In this document: positions 53,540-63,057 of the stretch, in pieces
How the letters are laid out: the number at the start of each line of letters is the position of its first letter
Position numbering within the stretch: the first letter of the stretch is position 1
Assembly: GCF_003286415.2 (NCBI RefSeq)
Contig: NZ_CP043450.1
Span: 5,952,001-6,016,000, forward strand
Origin: Mucilaginibacter rubeus
GTDB taxonomy: Bacteria > Bacteroidota > Bacteroidia > Sphingobacteriales > Sphingobacteriaceae
Length of the DNA: 64,000 nucleotides
Direction of reading: 5' to 3'
Translations under genes and position numbers: made by a program
Notes under the pieces: generated by a model
The model's input: the letters and a program-made list of their open reading frames with translations, nothing else
What the model was told of the DNA's origin: nothing
Databases searched by the model: none

Positions 53540-54154
53540 ATGAAACCCGGGACCAGATTTTTACATTCTCTTTTTGAAGTAGCACACGTTGAATTTCAAA
53601 CTTATGACCTTTCCAATCAAAAGGTTCTGTTTTCGAGCGGAGTAACCCGTCAGCTTTTGGGATATTCAGAAAGTGAATATGTTAACCTGAGCAATGAATT
53701 TTACCGAAGTATCATTCACCCTGATGATTACGAAAAAGTACAGCAAACCATCAACAAAACCATTCAATCAAAAAGTGGCGATGTAATAGAAATGACTGTG
53801 CGCCTGCGCCGGATCGATGGCTCGTATATTTGGCTTTATTCAAGACAAATGATTTATCAAAGAAACCACGCTAATGGCACGCTGACCATTATAAGGGAAG
53901 TTGAGGATGTTACTCGCCTGGTTGAACTTCAGGGCGATCTGGAAGAAAAAGTTGAACAGCTCAAAGCAATCTCCTATAAAAACTCCCATCTGTTGCGCGG
54001 GCCCGTGTCAAGCATTATTGGCCTGGTTGATTTGATTGAAGAACACGCGGTGACAAGTGATCATAATCGGCAGATATTGCATTATCTAAAGGAAACCATA
54101 GCCAAACTGGACGGCGTAGTTAGAGAGATCAATGAAAATGCAAACCTGAGATAA
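53540..54154 (+). CDS. PAS protein with orphan HisKA-like helix
   Basis: Cytoplasmic protein of 204 residues. A PAS fold with PAC segment spans about 15-130 (SIIHPDDYEKV and VRLRRIDGSYIWLYSRQM). A linker coiled coil follows, then a helix with NSHLLRGPVSSIIGLVDL around His150, which resembles the H-box of histidine kinases. The protein ends at 204, with no ATPase domain. It could be a phosphotransfer or inhibitor protein. The gene is complete with a normal stop, so it is not a simple truncation. The neighbours do not give a function. Confidence 0.8.
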   Translation: MKPGTRFLHSLFEVAHVEFQTYDLSNQKVLFSSGVTRQLLGYSESEYVNLSNEFYRSIIHPDDYEKVQQTINKTIQSKSGDVIEMTVRLRRIDGSYIWLYSRQMIYQRNHANGTLTIIREVEDVTRLVELQGDLEEKVEQLKAISYKNSHLLRGPVSSIIGLVDLIEEHAVTSDHNRQILHYLKETIAKLDGVVREINENANLR

Positions 54155-54230: not shown

Positions 54231-55466
54231 TTAACTACGGCCGATTTCTTCGCACCACCTTATAAAATCTACTGTATCCGTATCATGAAACCAAAGTTGC
54301 TTTTCTTTTGCCTGGTTATCTAAAATATAATTTACTGCCTGTGTTATCTCGAAATTTATTGAGCCTGTCATTCGGGCCGCCGGTGATATTTGCTTCCCTT
54401 TCGCAATCTGCTTTTCAAGATCAAAATTCAATAAACTCCATTCTTTAGCGCCCCGGATAGATATACTTCCCCTTTCTTCTCCGTTGGCAATATGTTTTAC
54501 TTTTATATGGTCGTGATCCTTATCCTTCCAGGTAGCTTTATTTCCAAATAAATTTTTCTCTTCAGGCGGTGGCGCATCTTTATATAACACTAATATCCAT
54601 CCTTTATAATCAGTTACAGTTCCGTTATACACTTTATTTTCACAGGTTGATCTTGCGCTCGGAAATATCAACCCATTGGCACCGTTGCTTCGAAGCCATG
54701 CGCCAACGGCCTGACCAAATATATCGCCGCCACCTATTTCCAAACTCATAATGGAAGGCAAGAGCTCTTCAAAACTATTTACGGTTCCCTTCCCCAGATA
54801 ATGAATGCCCGACTTTTTTGCTGCGGCCTCTGTATTTTCCAACTCCAGGTTTACAAAGGTTTTGAAAAACCAGTCTTGAGTATCCGGCAATCTCAAATCT
54901 ATTATCTTGTCGATATCTGCAATAATTTGTCTTATACCGTAGGTAATAGCTGATTTCGTATTCAGTGACAAGTCGTTATAATCGTGCAATAATTTTTTAT
55001 TGCTGTCCGTTTCCGTTTCCAATAAGCAGGTACAGAAATAATACGGATACCTGGCATCTTCTTCTGTAAAAAACTTTTCGGCTATTAGATAATCCGTTAG
55101 CCAGGCATCTACCTTCGGATCAAAAATCTCGGGAATAATACCCGATGCTCCGCTATAATAAGCGTACATTTCGTCTCTTAGGGTTCCAAAATCGTTAAAA
55201 TCGGCTTCTGAACAAATAGTAAAATACCGGTTTGAAGGAAGATCACCGCCGCCGGCAAATCTTCTGTTTCTCTTTCCAAAATTAAATTCGGTACCAGCTG
55301 CAGTTACAATAGTATTAACCCCCTCCTTTTTCAGCTTTTCATACATATCATGCAAGTCATTAAACTTTGAAAAGATTGTATCAAAAACATCCCGCATAAA
55401 AGGAAACTTAAAATCGGTATTAAGCTGTTTTAAACCACCTTTATAATTACTAAATGGTATATCCAT
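54231..55466 (-). CDS. Unknown 411-residue protein
   Basis: I do not recognise this family with certainty. It has no signal peptide or membrane segment. A stretch NGANGLIFPSARSTCENK (261-278) resembles the end of the RES NAD-consuming domain, where a GIIYPS pattern is common; residues 66-80 (RNRRFAGGGDLPSNR) could hold the start of such a fold. This is a weak visual match. It may be a toxin-like or nucleotide-modifying enzyme, but no antitoxin is adjacent. A terminator lies upstream at 55611. Confidence 0.6.
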   Translation of the reverse strand: MDIPFSNYKGGLKQLNTDFKFPFMRDVFDTIFSKFNDLHDMYEKLKKEGVNTIVTAAGTEFNFGKRNRRFAGGGDLPSNRYFTICSEADFNDFGTLRDEMYAYYSGASGIIPEIFDPKVDAWLTDYLIAEKFFTEEDARYPYYFCTCLLETETDSNKKLLHDYNDLSLNTKSAITYGIRQIIADIDKIIDLRLPDTQDWFFKTFVNLELENTEAAAKKSGIHYLGKGTVNSFEELLPSIMSLEIGGGDIFGQAVGAWLRSNGANGLIFPSARSTCENKVYNGTVTDYKGWILVLYKDAPPPEEKNLFGNKATWKDKDHDHIKVKHIANGEERGSISIRGAKEWSLLNFDLEKQIAKGKQISPAARMTGSINFEITQAVNYILDNQAKEKQLWFHDTDTVDFIRWCEEIGRS

Positions 55467-55610
55467 GATTAACTTCTTAGTTGATTGAAATTAATGAATT
55501 TCTTGTGATTTAGTTATCCTATCTGCCTTCAGATGGGCAAAACGACAAATTAAGGTACTATTTATTGTACCTTCTTACATCTCCGAAGCGATAATATAGA
55601 TAACAATAAC

Positions 55611-55647
55611 AAATCGGGCAAACTTGAAAACTAAGCTTGCCCGATTT
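55611..55647. terminator. Terminator after the AraC-FtsX gene
   Basis: Stem AAATCGGGCAA / TTGCCCGATTT with an inner CTT/AAG pair, followed by a T-run on the plus side. It lies between the stop of the minus-strand fusion gene and the start of the 411-residue gene. Confidence 0.8.
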
Positions 55648-55689
55648 TTTTTTGCAAGCTGGAATCAGCCTGCCTTAAAAGATATTAAA

Positions 55690-58600
55690 TTACTCACTCC
55701 GCAAACTTTTAACCGGGTTTGTTAACGCGGCCTTTATTGCCTGAAAACTGATGGTCAAGAGGGTTATAACAAGTGCCGCAATCCCCGACACGATAAATAC
55801 CCCCAAACCAATGCTAACGCGATATGCATATTTTTCCAGCCAGTGCTCCAGGAAGTAAAGCGTCAGCGGCGAAGCAATAAGGCAACTGATCAAAACCAGC
55901 ACCACAAAATCCCGCGATAGCAACAGCCAAACCTGCGCTATGGACGCGCCTAATACCTTGCGGATACCGATCTCCTTGGTGCGCTGCTCGGCCACGTAAG
56001 CGGCAAGACCGAATAAGCCCAGGCAGGAAATAAATATAGCCAGGGCTGCAAATACACCAGCCAGTTTGCCTAAAAGCACTTCCAGGTTAAACTTGCTCGC
56101 ATACTCCTCGTCAATAAACTTATACTGATAAGGAAAAGCCGGGTTATATTTTTGAAATATCTTGCCTATCTTTTCGATAGTAACGTGTGTATCGACGTTT
56201 TTGGGCAGGCGGTAAGTGATTACGAAACCATAAGGATTGTGGCCGAAAACAGCAGGCGCTACGGGAGTATATGGCGATTCCATCAGAGCGTCTTTGACCA
56301 CTCCGATAATTTTAACCGGCGTATTGCCGAAATTGACTTTTATAATTTGATTGACCGGATCTTTAAGTCCAATGCGCTTCACCATGGCTTCATTCACAAT
56401 CACATTCAGAGAGTCGCTTTTCCAGTCGCCCATAAAATTATGGCCGGCGGCAAAGGTCATGCCCATGGTTTTGAAATAATCATCCGATACCCAGATCCCG
56501 CCAATATTCACATCTTCTTCTCCTGCATTTTTGCCAGGCCATTTCTCTAACGAAAAATGACTATACACCTGCGTTGCCGGCGATGTAGATGATGCCATGC
56601 TTTCAACCAATCCGGATGATAGCAAATCGTTTCTTAAAGCGTCAAAATGCTGAGAAAGATCACCGTTCATGTCGGTCATCACCAGCCTGTCGGCATTGTA
56701 ACCTGTTGGCCGGTCTTTCACAAACTGTATTTGCTGGTAAACAATAACAGTACTGATGATCAACGCAACCGAGCAGGTAAATTGTACAACCACTAATATT
56801 TTCCGCGGTAGTGTTGCAGCTTTGCCCATTTGGATGCTTCCCTTCAGCACCTTTACCGGGTTGAATGACGACAGGTAAAACGCCGGCCTGCTTCCGGCGG
56901 CCAAACCTGTTAACAGCACAAAAGCAATCATGATGGCCCAGAAACCTATGTTATTATACGGCACCTGGATATATGACCCCGTTAAAGCATTAAATGAAGG
57001 CAGTGCCAGCTGGACAAAAAGCATGCAAAGCAAAAACGACACAGACGTGATCAAAACCGACTCAAGCAAAAACTGGTAAACCAGGTCGACACGTCCAGAG
57101 CCTATCGCTTTGCGAACGCCCACTTCCCTCGCGCGTTTTTCGGACCGTGCGGTTGAAAGGTTCATGAAATTGATGCAGGCTATCGCCAATACCAGGATAC
57201 CGATGACGCCGAATAAGCGCACATAATCTACAAAGCCACCTGCCACCTTTCCATTCTGGAAATTGCTGTATAAATGCCAATCCTTTAAAGGGTGCATAAA
57301 AACTTCTGGTTTCAGCGATCTCATTTCCGGGCTTCTTTTCTCTACAATATCCCTGATCTTGGGTGCTATTTGTGCATAGCTTACACCCGGCTCCAGCGAA
57401 ACATAAGCAGAGAATGAATTGTAGGTCCACTTGGTGCGCCCATCCCTGATCCAGCCTTGTGTTGCTTCAGAGTAAGCAAAGGGAGTTAGATAGCTGAATT
57501 GCATAGTAGCATTAGTGGGGATATCCTTAATAACCCCGGTAACCTTCATACTTTGAATGTTATCAAAACGCACAACCTTCCCCATCGGATCGGCATCGCC
57601 AAATAGCGCTTTGGCGGTTGATTCGGTCAGCACAATGGAGTAGATATCAGTCAACGCCGAGTTAGCGTTGCCCTTAATAAACGGATATTGAAATATTTTA
57701 AAGAAATCGGGCCCGGCAGCTCCCCCGCCCAGGTACAGTTTCTTATCGCCCACTAATAGATCATGGTTCATCCGGCCGATATTATCAGCTTCGGCCACAT
57801 ATTGTACTCCCGGGATCTCCTTCCGCAACACATCAACCAGAGGAAGCGCTATAGATGTTTGGGTAGATGTGCCGTTATGCTGCGAGGTCAGGTTCATTTC
57901 TACCTGGTACGAGCGGGCATAATCAGGCAGGAAACGGTCATAGGAGTATTGATTGGTCACCCATAAACCAATCAGGAGTGCGACGGCCATACCGGCCGCC
58001 AATCCTACAATATTCAGCGCGCTATAAACTTTGTTGTACAGCATATTGCGCCAGGCAATTTTTAAATAATTACGAAACATATGAATGCGATTTAATTTCT
58101 TACCAGACCATACAGGAATGGTTTTGTGACCCGAAATTATCGCTGCGGATACTGATAGAAGTTCCAAATCATGATTTGGGCGCTCTTTTTTTAGTCCGCT
58201 CTTATATTCCGCCGGGCTTTTGCCGGTGATTTGTTTGAACGTGCGATTAAAAGTAGTTTTGGAATTGAACCCGCAATCATACGCTATACCCAAAAGTGTT
58301 ATCCGGTTGTAAGCAGGATCCCGCATTCTCCGGGTTACATCCTGTATCCGGAATTCATTTACAAAATCGTTAAAGTTTTTACGCAGGCCAGTATTGATGA
58401 TCTTCGACAATTCGTGGATGGAAATACCGAGCTCCTTGGCCAACGAGTTTAAGCTTAACTCCGCGTCCAGGTAAAACTTATTAACCTTCATTTGATGCCT
58501 CAGCCAATAACCCCGTTGTATCAATCTATCTGCCGATGACGGGCTTGCAGGCATAAACTGTTTTCCGGTTATTTTATTGACCTCTTTTTGCGCGGGATAT

Positions 58601-59115
58601 TTAACCAGTTTTGAGCACCTGTACAAATAAGTTGTAATAGAAATGAAGGCCAGCAATTGCAATACCGACTGCAAGTGTTTATACACCGGGGTATCATAGG
58701 TAGCAAGCCCGGTGTGCATGCTTTGAAGAACGGCCAGCACATGCATCCCCTGTTCCAATAACAAAGGGCTGAAGTGTACCAGATCTTTGGCTGTAAATTT
58801 TTCTTCCGGTTTAACTATACCACGAACATAAAAAAACACCAGCGGGCCAAGTGTCAGCAGAAACTGCAGCGGCACCCAACTCCATCGCGGAAAACTCCTG
58901 CTTAATTGAATATCAATACAGAAGTTTCTGAGCAACCACAACATCATCGTAACCAGGATAAGGCTAAGCAAGCGGTTGACATATCTTTTGGAAAACCATA
59001 ACCGCAGACTGGAAATCAGCCCGATGAATATAGCAGCCAGCAAGAGCAGATCAAATATGTTGATATGGAACTGATTAAGAGTCATTAGTACATTGGGGCT
59101 CAACTCCTGTTCCAC
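55690..59115 (-). CDS. AraC-type membrane regulator fused to an FtsX/MacB permease
   Basis: Single reading frame of 1141 residues. Residues 1-175 hold about five membrane spans (near 18-38, 48-66, 81-98, 115-133 and 148-165), then an AraC helix-turn-helix region at 200-306 (SLNSLAKELGISIHELSKII, GIAYDCGFNSKTTFNRTFKQITGKSPAEY). A linker of about 40 residues follows. From Met346 (ATG at 58080) to 1141 is a full MacB-type ABC permease: MFRNYLKIAWRNMLYN, two periplasmic domains, four to eight spans, ending in NPVKSLRSE. Each half equals a whole separate gene in length. No stop lies in the linker. The permease could also be made from its own start at 58080. No ATPase gene is near. It may couple transport to transcription. 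Confidence 0.85.
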   Translation of the reverse strand: MEQELSPNVLMTLNQFHINIFDLLLLAAIFIGLISSLRLWFSKRYVNRLLSLILVTMMLWLLRNFCIDIQLSRSFPRWSWVPLQFLLTLGPLVFFYVRGIVKPEEKFTAKDLVHFSPLLLEQGMHVLAVLQSMHTGLATYDTPVYKHLQSVLQLLAFISITTYLYRCSKLVKYPAQKEVNKITGKQFMPASPSSADRLIQRGYWLRHQMKVNKFYLDAELSLNSLAKELGISIHELSKIINTGLRKNFNDFVNEFRIQDVTRRMRDPAYNRITLLGIAYDCGFNSKTTFNRTFKQITGKSPAEYKSGLKKERPNHDLELLSVSAAIISGHKTIPVWSGKKLNRIHMFRNYLKIAWRNMLYNKVYSALNIVGLAAGMAVALLIGLWVTNQYSYDRFLPDYARSYQVEMNLTSQHNGTSTQTSIALPLVDVLRKEIPGVQYVAEADNIGRMNHDLLVGDKKLYLGGGAAGPDFFKIFQYPFIKGNANSALTDIYSIVLTESTAKALFGDADPMGKVVRFDNIQSMKVTGVIKDIPTNATMQFSYLTPFAYSEATQGWIRDGRTKWTYNSFSAYVSLEPGVSYAQIAPKIRDIVEKRSPEMRSLKPEVFMHPLKDWHLYSNFQNGKVAGGFVDYVRLFGVIGILVLAIACINFMNLSTARSEKRAREVGVRKAIGSGRVDLVYQFLLESVLITSVSFLLCMLFVQLALPSFNALTGSYIQVPYNNIGFWAIMIAFVLLTGLAAGSRPAFYLSSFNPVKVLKGSIQMGKAATLPRKILVVVQFTCSVALIISTVIVYQQIQFVKDRPTGYNADRLVMTDMNGDLSQHFDALRNDLLSSGLVESMASSTSPATQVYSHFSLEKWPGKNAGEEDVNIGGIWVSDDYFKTMGMTFAAGHNFMGDWKSDSLNVIVNEAMVKRIGLKDPVNQIIKVNFGNTPVKIIGVVKDALMESPYTPVAPAVFGHNPYGFVITYRLPKNVDTHVTIEKIGKIFQKYNPAFPYQYKFIDEEYASKFNLEVLLGKLAGVFAALAIFISCLGLFGLAAYVAEQRTKEIGIRKVLGASIAQVWLLLSRDFVVLVLISCLIASPLTLYFLEHWLEKYAYRVSIGLGVFIVSGIAALVITLLTISFQAIKAALTNPVKSLRSE

Positions 59116-59392
59116 AATAACAACACATTGATTTACATTAATTTATCGAAAATCAATATTGCTCTTTTGTAATGATACCGGACATCGGTTGTTCGGTTTT
59201 GAAATATGCCTAAAAGCTGCTAATCTTATATGATGAAATATTGGGTTTCGATTATAACCAGTTTGACAGCCACTTTTCGACAGTATCGACAATTACACGG
59301 TATAGGAAGGCCGTGTATGAGTTTTACGTATCTTCGAAACTCTTCTGCAAAGAAGAAAACAACTGTTCTAATTTTATAAAATTCAATCCATA

Positions 59393-59722
59393 ATGAAACG
59401 CAAAATGTTATTAATAGCGGTAATAGGTATTGTTTTTATTGTCGGTGTAATCGCTTACTTATCTTTATTTACCCGGACCAGACAAATAGGTAATATGGAG
59501 GAGCAGGCAGGTTACCTTATTAAAAAGGTTGAAGAATATAAAAGACAACACCATCAACTTCCAAAGTATATAGATGACATGCAGCTTAATTTACCCGATG
59601 ATTATCCCTTCTCTTATGCCCTAACAAAGGATAGTTCGAATTATTTGGTGGGTTTTGAGATTGCGCCTTTTAAATCCATGGTGTATTATTCCGAAAACAA
59701 AACATGGATGTCTCAGCAATAG
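59393..59722 (+). CDS. Small membrane-anchored hypothetical protein
   Basis: Protein of 109 residues with one N-terminal span (about 6-24, LLLIAVIGIVFIVGVIAYLSL) and a helical extracytoplasmic domain, QKxEEY-like with YIDDMQLNLPDDY and FSYAL. Unrecognised family. It lies between the AraC-FtsX gene and the SUKH gene and is probably unrelated to both. It is more A+T-rich than its neighbours by eye. Confidence 0.6.
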   Translation: MKRKMLLIAVIGIVFIVGVIAYLSLFTRTRQIGNMEEQAGYLIKKVEEYKRQHHQLPKYIDDMQLNLPDDYPFSYALTKDSSNYLVGFEIAPFKSMVYYSENKTWMSQQ

Positions 59723-59748
59723 TTGGCACCGTTTAAGATTCCAGAACC

Positions 59749-59796
59749 GGTCGAAATTTATGGCTTCGGCCTAAAATAAAGCAAGCATCTTGCTTG
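59749..59796. repeat. Family D partial copy 2
   Basis: GGTCGAAATTTA, GGCCTAAAATAAAGCAAGCA and TCTTGCTTG match the arm and hairpin of the element at 29178. The rest of this gap up to 59928 holds no gene. Confidence 0.6.
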
Positions 59797-59928
59797 TGAG
59801 GTATGGCAAGTATAGGATGAAACAAACATTATAAATAGGCAGGCAGGTAATTGATTGCAGCTATGCCCCTATAGCTTCCTTAGCCAACACCCGGGAAAGC
59901 CCTCTTCCCACAATTAAACTTTGGCAAC

Positions 59929-60378
59929 ATGGTAGAATTTTTTAATACCGAAAATAATCTGACAGTAGAGCAGATAAGATTGATCGCATCAAAGTATCAA
60001 TTGGTATTTCCCGATGAATATGTAGATCATTTACTCATTAACAATGGCGGGCAATGCCATCCTAATGTTTTTGAATTTATAGAAAACGGACAGCTTACAG
60101 AGTCAAATGTTGATTGGTTTCTGGCGATCTATGATGGTAGATATGATAGTTTAGAGCAGTATATAAAAGTATTTAAAAAAGATCAGGCAAGGATACCTGA
60201 TTCTTTTATCCCCATCGCACATGACCCAGGCGGCAATTTAATATGTATTTCATGTGTGGATAAGAAGATTTATTATTGGGATCATGAGAAAGAAATGATC
60301 AATGCAGATCATAATGGGGCAGGTAATATTCATTTTATTGCTCGCAATCTGGAAACCTTTCTTAATAGCTTAAGATAA
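59929..60378 (+). CDS. SMI1/KNR4 (SUKH) family protein
   Basis: Protein of 149 residues with the SUKH-fold pattern: VEQIRLIASKYQLVFPDEYVDHLLINNGG, then FIPIAHDPGGNLICISCVDKKIYYWDHE. Members often neutralise polymorphic toxins (nuclease or deaminase types), so this may be an orphan immunity protein. No toxin gene with a matching C-terminal domain is nearby, so the role is uncertain. It is flanked by two family D repeat copies. Confidence 0.83.
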   Translation: MVEFFNTENNLTVEQIRLIASKYQLVFPDEYVDHLLINNGGQCHPNVFEFIENGQLTESNVDWFLAIYDGRYDSLEQYIKVFKKDQARIPDSFIPIAHDPGGNLICISCVDKKIYYWDHEKEMINADHNGAGNIHFIARNLETFLNSLR

Positions 60379-60391
60379 CATCCTCCTTCAA

Positions 60392-60449
60392 TGGTCGAAA
60401 TCATGCTTTCGTTAAACTATGGCCTAAAATAAAGCAAGTCCCCTGCTTA
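60392..60449. repeat. Family D partial copy 3
   Basis: TGGTCGAAATCATGCTTTC, then GGCCTAAAATAAAGCAAG and CCTGCTTA, matching copy 2 at 59749. It follows the SUKH gene directly. Confidence 0.6.
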
Positions 60450-60630
60450 GTCTACACCCCGCTTAATTTCAAAGCATTAACCGTCCGGATACAGACAGCT
60501 ATTGTTCCACTCACGAACAGTTTTCAAACCCAAACACCTTACAAAAATCTAAAAATCAACAACTTAAAAACATGGCACAACATTTATGCTGAGTTCTTAG
60601 CAAAAAGTTTCCTACTTAAACCCAAACCAT

Positions 60631-63057
60631 ATGATACGAAGCTACTTTAAGATTGCCTGGCGCACTATTGTTCGCAATAAAAGCTATTCGGCCATTAATA
60701 TTGCCGGACTTTCGGTGGGGATAGCGGCTTGCCTGCTCATATTTGTAGTTGTTCAGTACGAGCTCAGCTTTGATACTTTCCAGCCGGGTTATAAAAGCAC
60801 CTACAGGATAGTTACCAAACACGACAGGTCCGGGACTATTAATTATAGCAGTGGCGTTGCAGCTCCTGCTGTCGACGCTTTGCGGCTGCTTTTTCCACAG
60901 GCAACAGTAGCAGGTATCGACGCCATATACGGCAGCCAAATCATGGCCTCGTCTGCCGGTGGCAATCCTGTTAACGATAAAAAGTTTATCGAGAAAACGG
61001 GTATCATGTTTGCTGAACCTCAGCTTTTTGATGTTTTTCCGGCAACATGGCTCGCGGGCGGCTCATCGGCCTTAAAAGAGCCCAATATGGTAGTAATAGA
61101 TCAAACCAGTGCCGAAAGATATTTTGGCGACTGGCATTCGGCCGTTGGTAAAACATTGAAGATGGACAACCTGCTAACCTTAAAAGTGGCAGGTGTAATT
61201 AAGGACGCACCGGCCAATACAGATATCCCTCTGAAATTGCTGGTTTCATACATTACCTGGAAGAAGAATGCCAAAAGCTATGGTTATTTTAACGACTGGG
61301 GCGAAACCAGCAGCAACTACCAGGTGTACATTAAATTTCCGGCAAATGTATCGCAAAGCAATATTCAAAAACAATTGACAAGTTTTTCGGATCAGCAATT
61401 TGATAACGCTAAACGCCTGGGCCACAAAAAATACCTGACAGCACAACCTTTAACAGACCTACACTTTGACACCCGTTTCGGCAATACATTAGGTGATCAT
61501 CTTACCAGCATAACAACCTTGCGCACATTATCATTGATAGCCGCGCTCATCATTGTTATGGCGTCTATTAATTTTATTAATCTATCCACCGCTCAATCCG
61601 TTGGCAGATCGAAAGAAGTGGGTGTGCGTAAAGTACTTGGTGGTACACGCCTGCAGCTGATTGGGCAGGTTATGGGCGAAACAGCTATTATAGTGCTGTT
61701 ATCGGCAGGTATTGCGTTGTTTATTGCTCAACTGGCTTTACCATTCCTGCAAAATATAGCCAGCGTGCCTGCAACCATAGGTTTGTTCAATACTGGTACG
61801 GCGCTTTTTCTTGGCAGTGTTATCGTCGTGGTGATTATACTCTCGGGCATTTACCCTGCCCTGATCGTTTCCGGCTTTAAACCTATCGTGGCGTTAAAAA
61901 ACAAGATAAACGCGGCGTCTGTAGGCGGTATATCCCTCCGCCGGGTTCTGGTGGTTACACAGTTTACCATCTCGCAAGTGCTCATCATAGGCACGGTGAT
62001 CGCCATTAAACAAATGGATTTTGTAAACAATGCCGACCTCGGGTTCAATAAAGATGCCGTGCTGGTGCTCCCATGCCCTGCAGATAGCGTTGGCTTATCG
62101 CGCGCAGTGAGTTTTAAGCAGCAGGTACTGACCATGCCGGGCGTAAAGGCCGCCAGCTTCGCGTCTGACGTACCATCATCAGATAATAACAATTCTACCA
62201 ATTTCAACTTTGATCATTCAGATAAAGACCCCGGTTTCAACGTTTATATGAAAACAGCCGATGCCGACTACTTTAAAACCTTCGGACTTCATTTTGTAGC
62301 CGGACAGGGATACGACCAAAGTGAGATCCTGCACCAGGCAGTGATCAATGAAACCATGATGCACAAACTTGGCATCAACCGCGCTCAGGACGCACTCGGG
62401 AAAACCATGCGGTTTGGCGATAGCAATTGGCTGCCGATAGCCGGCGTAGTTGCCGATTTCAAAACCAACTCGATGCGGGAGGAAATTAAGCCGCTTGTGA
62501 TCTATCCGCAAAAAGCATTTGAACAGGAAATAGCCATAAAAATTGAGGGCAGCAAACTGACCAGAACCGTAGCCGGCTTACAAAGCCTCTGGTTAAACCG
62601 CTACCCGGAATATGTTTACAGTGGCTTTTTTGTTGACGAAAGTATTGCCAGTTTCTACAAACAGGAAAACCAGCTCGAGCTGATCTACAAAATATTTTCA
62701 CTGATTGCCATTTTTATTTCGTGCCTTGGTTTATACGGACTGGTATCCTTCATGGTAGTGCAGCGTACCCGCGAAGTGGGTATAAGGAAAGTTTTAGGTG
62801 CCCCGTTAAGCAGTATCGTGTACCTGTTTTCGAAAGAATTCATCGCGCTTATTGCCATCGCGTTTATGTTGAGCGCGCCCGCCGCCTGGTACATCATGAA
62901 AAGCTGGCTGCAAACTTTTGCCTATCGCATCTCGCCAGGTATATGGGCATTTATAGCAGCTATCACGGCTTCGCTATTGATAGGCTGGCTCACGGTAGGC
63001 TATAAAGCCATTAGGGCGGCATTGGCCAATCCGGTTAAAAGTCTGCGCTCTGAGTAA
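60631..63057 (+). CDS. FtsX/MacB-type ABC permease
   Basis: Integral membrane protein of 808 residues, a paralogue of the permease half of the AraC fusion. Begins MIRSYFKIAWRTIVRNKSYSAINIAGL (first span about 20-40), two MacB-type periplasmic domains, central spans about 290-310, 345-365 and 385-405, and C-terminal spans about 690-800. It ends NPVKSLRSE, the same tail as the fusion gene. No ATPase or membrane fusion protein is adjacent. It would export a peptide, lipoprotein or small compound; the substrate is unknown. Confidence 0.9.
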   Translation: MIRSYFKIAWRTIVRNKSYSAINIAGLSVGIAACLLIFVVVQYELSFDTFQPGYKSTYRIVTKHDRSGTINYSSGVAAPAVDALRLLFPQATVAGIDAIYGSQIMASSAGGNPVNDKKFIEKTGIMFAEPQLFDVFPATWLAGGSSALKEPNMVVIDQTSAERYFGDWHSAVGKTLKMDNLLTLKVAGVIKDAPANTDIPLKLLVSYITWKKNAKSYGYFNDWGETSSNYQVYIKFPANVSQSNIQKQLTSFSDQQFDNAKRLGHKKYLTAQPLTDLHFDTRFGNTLGDHLTSITTLRTLSLIAALIIVMASINFINLSTAQSVGRSKEVGVRKVLGGTRLQLIGQVMGETAIIVLLSAGIALFIAQLALPFLQNIASVPATIGLFNTGTALFLGSVIVVVIILSGIYPALIVSGFKPIVALKNKINAASVGGISLRRVLVVTQFTISQVLIIGTVIAIKQMDFVNNADLGFNKDAVLVLPCPADSVGLSRAVSFKQQVLTMPGVKAASFASDVPSSDNNNSTNFNFDHSDKDPGFNVYMKTADADYFKTFGLHFVAGQGYDQSEILHQAVINETMMHKLGINRAQDALGKTMRFGDSNWLPIAGVVADFKTNSMREEIKPLVIYPQKAFEQEIAIKIEGSKLTRTVAGLQSLWLNRYPEYVYSGFFVDESIASFYKQENQLELIYKIFSLIAIFISCLGLYGLVSFMVVQRTREVGIRKVLGAPLSSIVYLFSKEFIALIAIAFMLSAPAAWYIMKSWLQTFAYRISPGIWAFIAAITASLLIGWLTVGYKAIRAALANPVKSLRSE

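Follow-up and report, generated by a model that had tools for sequence, protein, structure and literature searches.

Within a 64,000-nucleotide stretch of the Mucilaginibacter rubeus chromosome (hereafter the window; contig NZ_CP043450.1, positions 5,952,001 to 6,016,000), a single gene encodes a membrane-embedded AraC-type regulator joined in frame to a full-length, duplicated FtsX permease, an architecture of which we found no description in the open-licence PubMed Central (PMC) literature. The best explanation, in which we place modest confidence, is that the product is a single-chain, autoregulated 'transceptor', whose permease would respond to a ligand and signal to the DNA-binding domain in the same chain. 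Recurrence of the fusion in many copies and species of soil bacteria related to Mucilaginibacter, with the permease swapped, suggests a transporter-like sensor wired to gene control.

An AraC-type regulator and an FtsX permease in one reading frame

The frame runs uninterrupted through 1141 codons of the minus strand (55690-59115), and the plus-strand reading of the same stretch is riddled with stops. An earlier note on this DNA, made from its letters, had proposed such a frame; it is confirmed here with its strand corrected to minus and its start to 59085. In relatives a TTTGGAACAGCGATTG-like word lies ~15-31 nt upstream of their own start codons. The GTG at 59115 falls inside this leader word, which sits 5′ of the start in relatives, so the translation start is most likely ATG 59085 (residue 11) rather than GTG 59115. 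Downstream of the gene lies a terminator-like stem, from a scan that gave 16 such sites against 5.9 in shuffled sequences, and the gene is therefore probably transcribed alone. The parts of the gene are as follows.

55690..59085, minus strand: coding sequence of the AraC-FtsX/MacB_PCD fusion, 1131 amino acids from ATG 59085 (1141 codons from GTG 59115), its start most likely placed by the leaders of relatives
59100..59115, minus strand: conserved leader word GTGGAACAGGAGTTGA, 5′ of the start codon, from comparison with relatives
58585..59085, minus strand: membrane domain of the head, with five helices predicted by AlphaFold (ORF residues 20-41, 45-68, 80-101, 109-135 and 143-177; ORF, open reading frame)
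58201..58443, minus strand: AraC-type DNA-binding domain HTH_18, ORF residues 225-305 (Pfam, 50.4 bits against a cut-off of 33.6)
58081..58200, minus strand: linker, codons 306-345 (40 residues), conserved in length, mostly of low model confidence and with the gene's strongest synonymous-site constraint
55693..58080, minus strand: duplicated FtsX/MacB_PCD permease, ORF residues 346-1141 (Pfam, NCBIfam and structure)
55611..55647, minus strand: terminator-like stem of 15 pairs, 3′ of the fusion gene (terminator scan)

We modelled the protein with AlphaFold using 49 fusions as input (mean predicted local distance difference test score 77.3, predicted template modelling score 0.60, numbering from residue 11). 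In the model, five helices are followed by a low-confidence stretch and an AraC domain of seven helices; a further stretch of low confidence (305-331) then leads into the permease, which has two periplasmic domains. This bears out the five-span membrane head described earlier. Simple hydropathy finds four helices in the head at a strict threshold and five at a lax one; across the family these crude counts range from 3 to 7, too noisy for membrane-helix parity to be read. Both helix-turn-helix (HTH) units of the AraC/XylS type are present (PF12833, profile positions 1-78 of 80; PF00165, 35.1 bits); DNA binding and transcriptional control of this type are putative, the evidence being the candidate operator described below.

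Pfam finds two MacB_PCD and two FtsX stretches in the ~800 residues of the permease, which is thus duplicated and not a single MacB unit; AlphaFold gives it eight long helices and two large periplasmic domains. Foldseek ranked Escherichia coli YbbP first and MacB next, with LolC/E and BceB further down, and a sequence-profile search of the Protein Data Bank with the fusion returned MacB-type permeases and, weakly, AraC-type domains. The best NCBIfam match, ADOP (TIGR03434), covers the whole permease but scores 280 bits where the cut-off is 622.3. The fused permease is a YbbP/ADOP-like duplicated FtsX protein, differing from YbbP and ADOP in the AraC head in front and in its score under the ADOP cut-off. 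Membership of MacB, the name given in the earlier note, is ruled out: there is no PF00005 ATP-binding cassette (ABC) ATPase domain among the Pfam matches, and the match to the MacB equivalog model reaches 69 of 966 bits. All 123/123 fusions keep the coupling-motif residues R, E, R, K and G in the second FtsX half unchanged, so that an ATPase supplied in trans is possible.

Those 123 distinct full-length fusions are the yield of the search for AraC+FtsX architectures in Bacteroidota that had been proposed for this locus. They derive from sets of 54 and 110 frames with HTH and permease, partly the same genes, and were kept if longer than 1040 amino acids, complete at the 3′ end and distinct in their last 400 residues. 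Enough upstream DNA was available for 119/123; 108 had the standard spacing and served for third-base and palindrome searches, 51 of these 108 for RNA structure and both-side changes. A profile of the junction (HTH, linker and permease start) matched 23/201 genomes from the order, all 23 of the same family and in 4 genera; none of the 53 order-level matches contained an internal stop (53/53), and 48/53 lay in frames of at least 1129 amino acids. The phylum search (395 genomes) found full junctions in 3 genomes, M. rubeus included, all of the same family, and one degraded fusion in another family (genome G533); the remaining 12 matching genomes had the HTH and little or nothing beyond. Only the best candidates per genome were scored (15 order-level, 7 phylum), so copy numbers are lower bounds. 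Among the 80 loci listed, fusions came from Mucilaginibacter species, Olivibacter domesticus, Parapedobacter, Hufsiella, Puia dinghuensis, Chitinophaga rupis and a Chitinophagaceae metagenome-assembled genome. The closed M. rubeus chromosome itself has 7 intact fusions and one broken by a frameshift in the permease (C1:1163505-1166407), with 35 further permease frames unfused.

It is scarcely credible that faulty annotation or assembly produced the gene, or that it is two genes with a read-through in decay. Broken copies do exist, such as C1:1163505-1166407, L098, L100 and L103; against this reading, a single closed chromosome holds 7 intact paralogues and 123 relatives are in frame, which rules out an assembly artefact, and HTH and linker are conserved. 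A stop or frameshift in the linker, named beforehand as the result that would speak against a fusion, occurs in none of the 123 full-length relatives; breaks lie elsewhere, inside the permease or the HTH. Open frame, Pfam domains and relatives together thus establish a true in-frame AraC-permease fusion, as first proposed. Truncated or frameshifted fusions were seen at L098, L100, L103, L113, L147 and L222; that at L147, in genome G533, has frameshifts in both HTH and permease.

A candidate operator upstream of the fusion genes

Comparison of upstream regions revealed an inverted repeat before the fusion gene.

59174..59200, minus strand: candidate operator, AAAACCGAAC-N7-GTCCGGTATC, 115 nt 5′ of the start codon

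The family form, AAAACCGRAC-N7/8-GTYCGGTTTT, usually lies 113-117 nt before the ORF start (84-86 where the called start includes the leader). With at most 4 mismatches it is present in 76/119 fusion upstream regions against 1/119 shuffled ones. It also precedes 16/288 other frames of the loci; inspection showed 12 of these 16 to be fusions that are cut or shortened, and 2 to be divergent neighbours with the site in common. With a slightly laxer pattern, the repeat was found before 0/23 rows of stand-alone regulators (22 distinct genes; at most 4 mismatches) and before 4/32 of the unfused M. rubeus permeases, the best of these being a second fusion type described below. In the M. rubeus genome, 13 places match with at most 2 mismatches: 6 before fusion copies (of 8), 1 before the second fusion type and 6 elsewhere. 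From this placement we infer that the fusion may regulate itself through the upstream repeat. A looser related palindrome, for example ACCGTACACAAGGTGTTACG, occurs before some unfused permeases in L288, L289 and L295.

Exchange of heads and permeases

Pairwise identities correlate inside the head (0.59-0.65) and inside the permease (0.89-0.93); between head and permease the correlation is slight (0.09-0.24), and residues 346-362 track the permease (0.46-0.51) rather than the head (0.14-0.22). Permeases are at least 75% identical in 246 pairs, and in 75 of these head identity is below 60%; conversely, heads reach at least 75% identity in 56 pairs, 30 of which have permeases less than 45% identical. 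In one tandem pair (L126:6128-13191) the heads are near-identical and the permeases 37% identical: there are 7 differences over the first 1088 nt, after which identity drops to ~45%, and the upstream DNA is partly identical. Sequence comparison thus identifies this pair as a recent head exchange, and heads and permeases in general as modules swapped at residue 345/346. The residual head-permease correlation (0.19) exceeds that of permutations (mean 0.00, s.d. 0.03), showing that exchange is not free. A different palindrome, TTTCCGGACAAATCCGGAAA, lies upstream of the tandem pair.

A second type of fusion (G000:C1:228171-230954, or L286:9172-11955) has an unrelated head of ~115 residues, which ends just before the permease Met, with a duplicated permease behind it and an operator-like repeat upstream. 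Such fusions occur in 4/201 family genomes, M. rubeus included (relatives in G174, G019 and G008), in frames of 897-931. By eye the head had suggested a FecR-like anti-sigma factor, but for want of Pfam support and with an hhalign probability of 7% this identity was set aside and the head left unassigned. An independent fusion at the same permease site supports a receptor-like use of these permeases.

The near-independent evolution of head and permease would also suit a protein in which sensing and regulation fall to the head alone and the permease takes no part in signalling, serving to anchor the chain in the membrane or acting as an ordinary partner for transport. Stand-alone regulators of 360-410 amino acids with the same membrane domain and HTH, which unlike the fusion stop after the HTH, occur elsewhere in Bacteroidota and evidently work without a permease. 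We nevertheless think this alternative unlikely. Linker length and the permease coupling motifs are kept, with 41 residues between Tyr304 and Met346 in 108/123 fusions (27-30 in 6, 37 in 6, 40 in 2 and 45 in 1); the fusion recurs with many different permeases, and 800 residues are more than a passive anchor would need. Moreover, the N-terminal length of the heads varies from 110 to 310 residues among the 123, several lacking part of the membrane domain yet retaining HTH and linker. At 21/22 stand-alone regulator loci no permease was found in the ~1.5-kb flanks, and the other, L147, is a broken fusion; an ancestral neighbour pair of regulator and permease, sought at these 22 loci, was accordingly rejected.

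Possible signals within the linker

The linker DNA carries three further features.

58164..58179, minus strand: palindrome CCAAATCATGATTTGG, family form SCCA-N10-TGGS (palindrome search)
58132..58139, minus strand: TAATTTCG, a promoter-box-like word whose TA is invariant in 108/108 (third-base comparison)
58078..58080, minus strand: Met346 ATG, a possible internal start for the permease, ATG in 123/123 fusions

A two-product gene, in which a promoter and/or start in the linker yields the permease alone from Met346 beside the full-length protein, is possible but, in our judgement, rather doubtful. In its favour, Met346 is invariant, and the linker is under the strongest synonymous constraint: excess same-residue codon identity is 0.281 there, against 0.125 in the HTH, 0.147 in the membrane domain and 0.053 in the permease, and the six highest of 183 overlapping windows all fall in codons 306-347. 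Third bases are fixed under changing residues at codon 314 (T) and codon 326 (A), each in 108/108. No palindrome in the 642 nt from HTH to permease is stronger than the SCCA-N10-TGGS dyad (z 5.1), whose both-side changes (27) exceed those of shuffles (14.1; 0/500 reach the observed value) and of slid versions. The word TAATTTCG resembles the Bacteroidota -7 promoter box, TAnnTTTG. Thus the suggestion in the earlier note that Met346 might start a separate permease gains support as far as two products being possible, which is the second outcome that the note had itself named as speaking against a fusion, and an internal promoter or translation start in the linker is plausible on these patterns.

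Other results speak against two products. Two further palindrome measures are no better than shuffles (252/500 for both-side-change pairs, 175/500 for further pair types), and no conserved -33 partner was recognized at the usual spacing from TAATTTCG. RNAalifold gave no conserved RNA structure in the linker, which speaks against a conserved hairpin there and makes a DNA site likelier than an RNA one. The main alternative is recent spread of one head by recombination, although this leaves the fixed third bases unexplained, and the conserved Met could be a relic of swaps with unfused permeases. In separate scans, no Rfam family reached its gathering threshold in 55000-60700, and a sigma-70 search, the wrong promoter type for this phylum, gave no excess of promoters (15 versus 15.1).

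More speculatively, and improbably in our estimate, the fusions could form a modular sensor family: a near-constant membrane-AraC head set on many permease 'receptors', with a hidden promoter or operator and a translation start in the linker DNA, each gene making a DNA-tethered sensor-permease and a free permease. With the second head type, FtsX permeases would then be a general receptor scaffold.

A proposed single-chain transceptor and its known counterparts

In the transceptor that we favour, the permease would bind an envelope ligand through its two large periplasmic domains, and its conformational state would be relayed through the flexible linker to the HTH. Lying under the membrane, the HTH would bind the inverted repeat of its own promoter in a class I-like position, raising or lowering synthesis of the fusion. 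If transport occurs, the ATPase must come in trans. The architecture makes the protein a candidate for the defining property of transceptors, a signalling output driven by transport or ligand binding. From the topology, the fusion should bring DNA to the membrane, as the earlier note had argued. Regulators of the ToxR/CadC type likewise have a membrane-tethered DNA-binding domain expected to bind promoters from there; they differ from the fusion in HTH family, in having a single membrane helix and in lacking a permease.

Several results weigh against this reading. A recognizable repeat is missing from 43/119 fusions, including 2/8 M. rubeus copies. Genome-wide matches with at most 3 mismatches are fewer than those of reversed-pattern controls (48 versus 72; 42 versus 79), so that only position gives the operator matches meaning. 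A Mantel test shows no significant covariation between operator and HTH (r 0.10, p 0.056; for the permease r 0.02, p 0.228), nor are residues of the HTH more strongly associated with the operator than those of a control stretch in the permease. What binds the repeat may accordingly be the fused HTH, a paralogue or some other protein. No ABC ATPase gene (ABC_tran, E 1e-15) lies within ~17.9 kb of any of the 8 M. rubeus copies, a result that also leaves the earlier label of exporter unsupported; the genome has 60 ABC_tran matches at this threshold. Since broken copies exist, some fusions must be dispensable. Binding, expression and ligand are each predictions of the transceptor reading.

An FtsX-type transporter acting as a sensor that controls its own expression is described for BceAB-BceS-BceR of Bacillus (PMC6978683, PMC10314905), whose permease is of the FtsX superfamily and whose BceB is among the fold neighbours above. 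That system has a separate kinase, response regulator and ATPase; the fusion carries its DNA-binding domain on the same chain as the permease and has neither a kinase nor an ATPase domain. By analogy, one protein would here take over the task of the four in BceAB-BceS-BceR. A Bce-type module of ATPase, kinase and response regulator together was not found at the fusions, given the ATPase-free flanks of 8/8 copies, kinase neighbours not having been searched systematically. The CbrA transceptor, an SLC5 transporter with a histidine kinase, is likewise described as uniting transporter and signalling domain in one chain (PMC7096432, PMC13022988), but has another transporter fold and a kinase output rather than a DNA-binding domain. 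The transporter-as-sensor principle is thus already known, and a DNA-binding domain in the permease chain is a new variation on it.

Bacteroidota have FtsX-type permeases without an ATPase partner in abundance, and most of these still lack an explanation; 28 and 33 'orphan permease' copies are counted in a description of Dyadobacter (PMC11573002). Dozens of such permeases with a DNA-binding head and a recognizable operator make a signalling role directly testable by one reporter. If the reading is correct, a single chain forms a circuit from transporter to promoter, and nature, by swapping permeases behind a constant head, has already supplied a set of chimeras for mapping permease-to-DNA signalling. 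Since heads are alike while permeases differ, the paralogue set could feed many ligands into similar promoters.

Neighbouring genes and other permeases

60631..63057, plus strand: unfused duplicated permease of 808 amino acids, neighbour of the fusion (frame table, Pfam)

This neighbour is unfused, as had been claimed, and only 33% identical to the fused permease. Between the two permeases lies a gene of the SMI1/KNR4 (SUKH-1) family (window 59929-60378, 66.5 bits). Window 53540-54154 encodes a short PAS_3 protein, followed by a merely partial HisKA stretch. Elsewhere in the chromosome (L287-L290, G000:C1:2159500-2225000), ~20 unfused duplicated FtsX permeases stand in tandem. This array (2.16-2.22 Mb) is flanked by ABC ATPases at 2162571 and 2220451 and, by appearance, also has an HlyD-like and a TolC-like gene. 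Many of the permeases in L287-L289 have overlapping stop/start runs, for example AATGAACTAATGAAC, just 5′ of their start codons.

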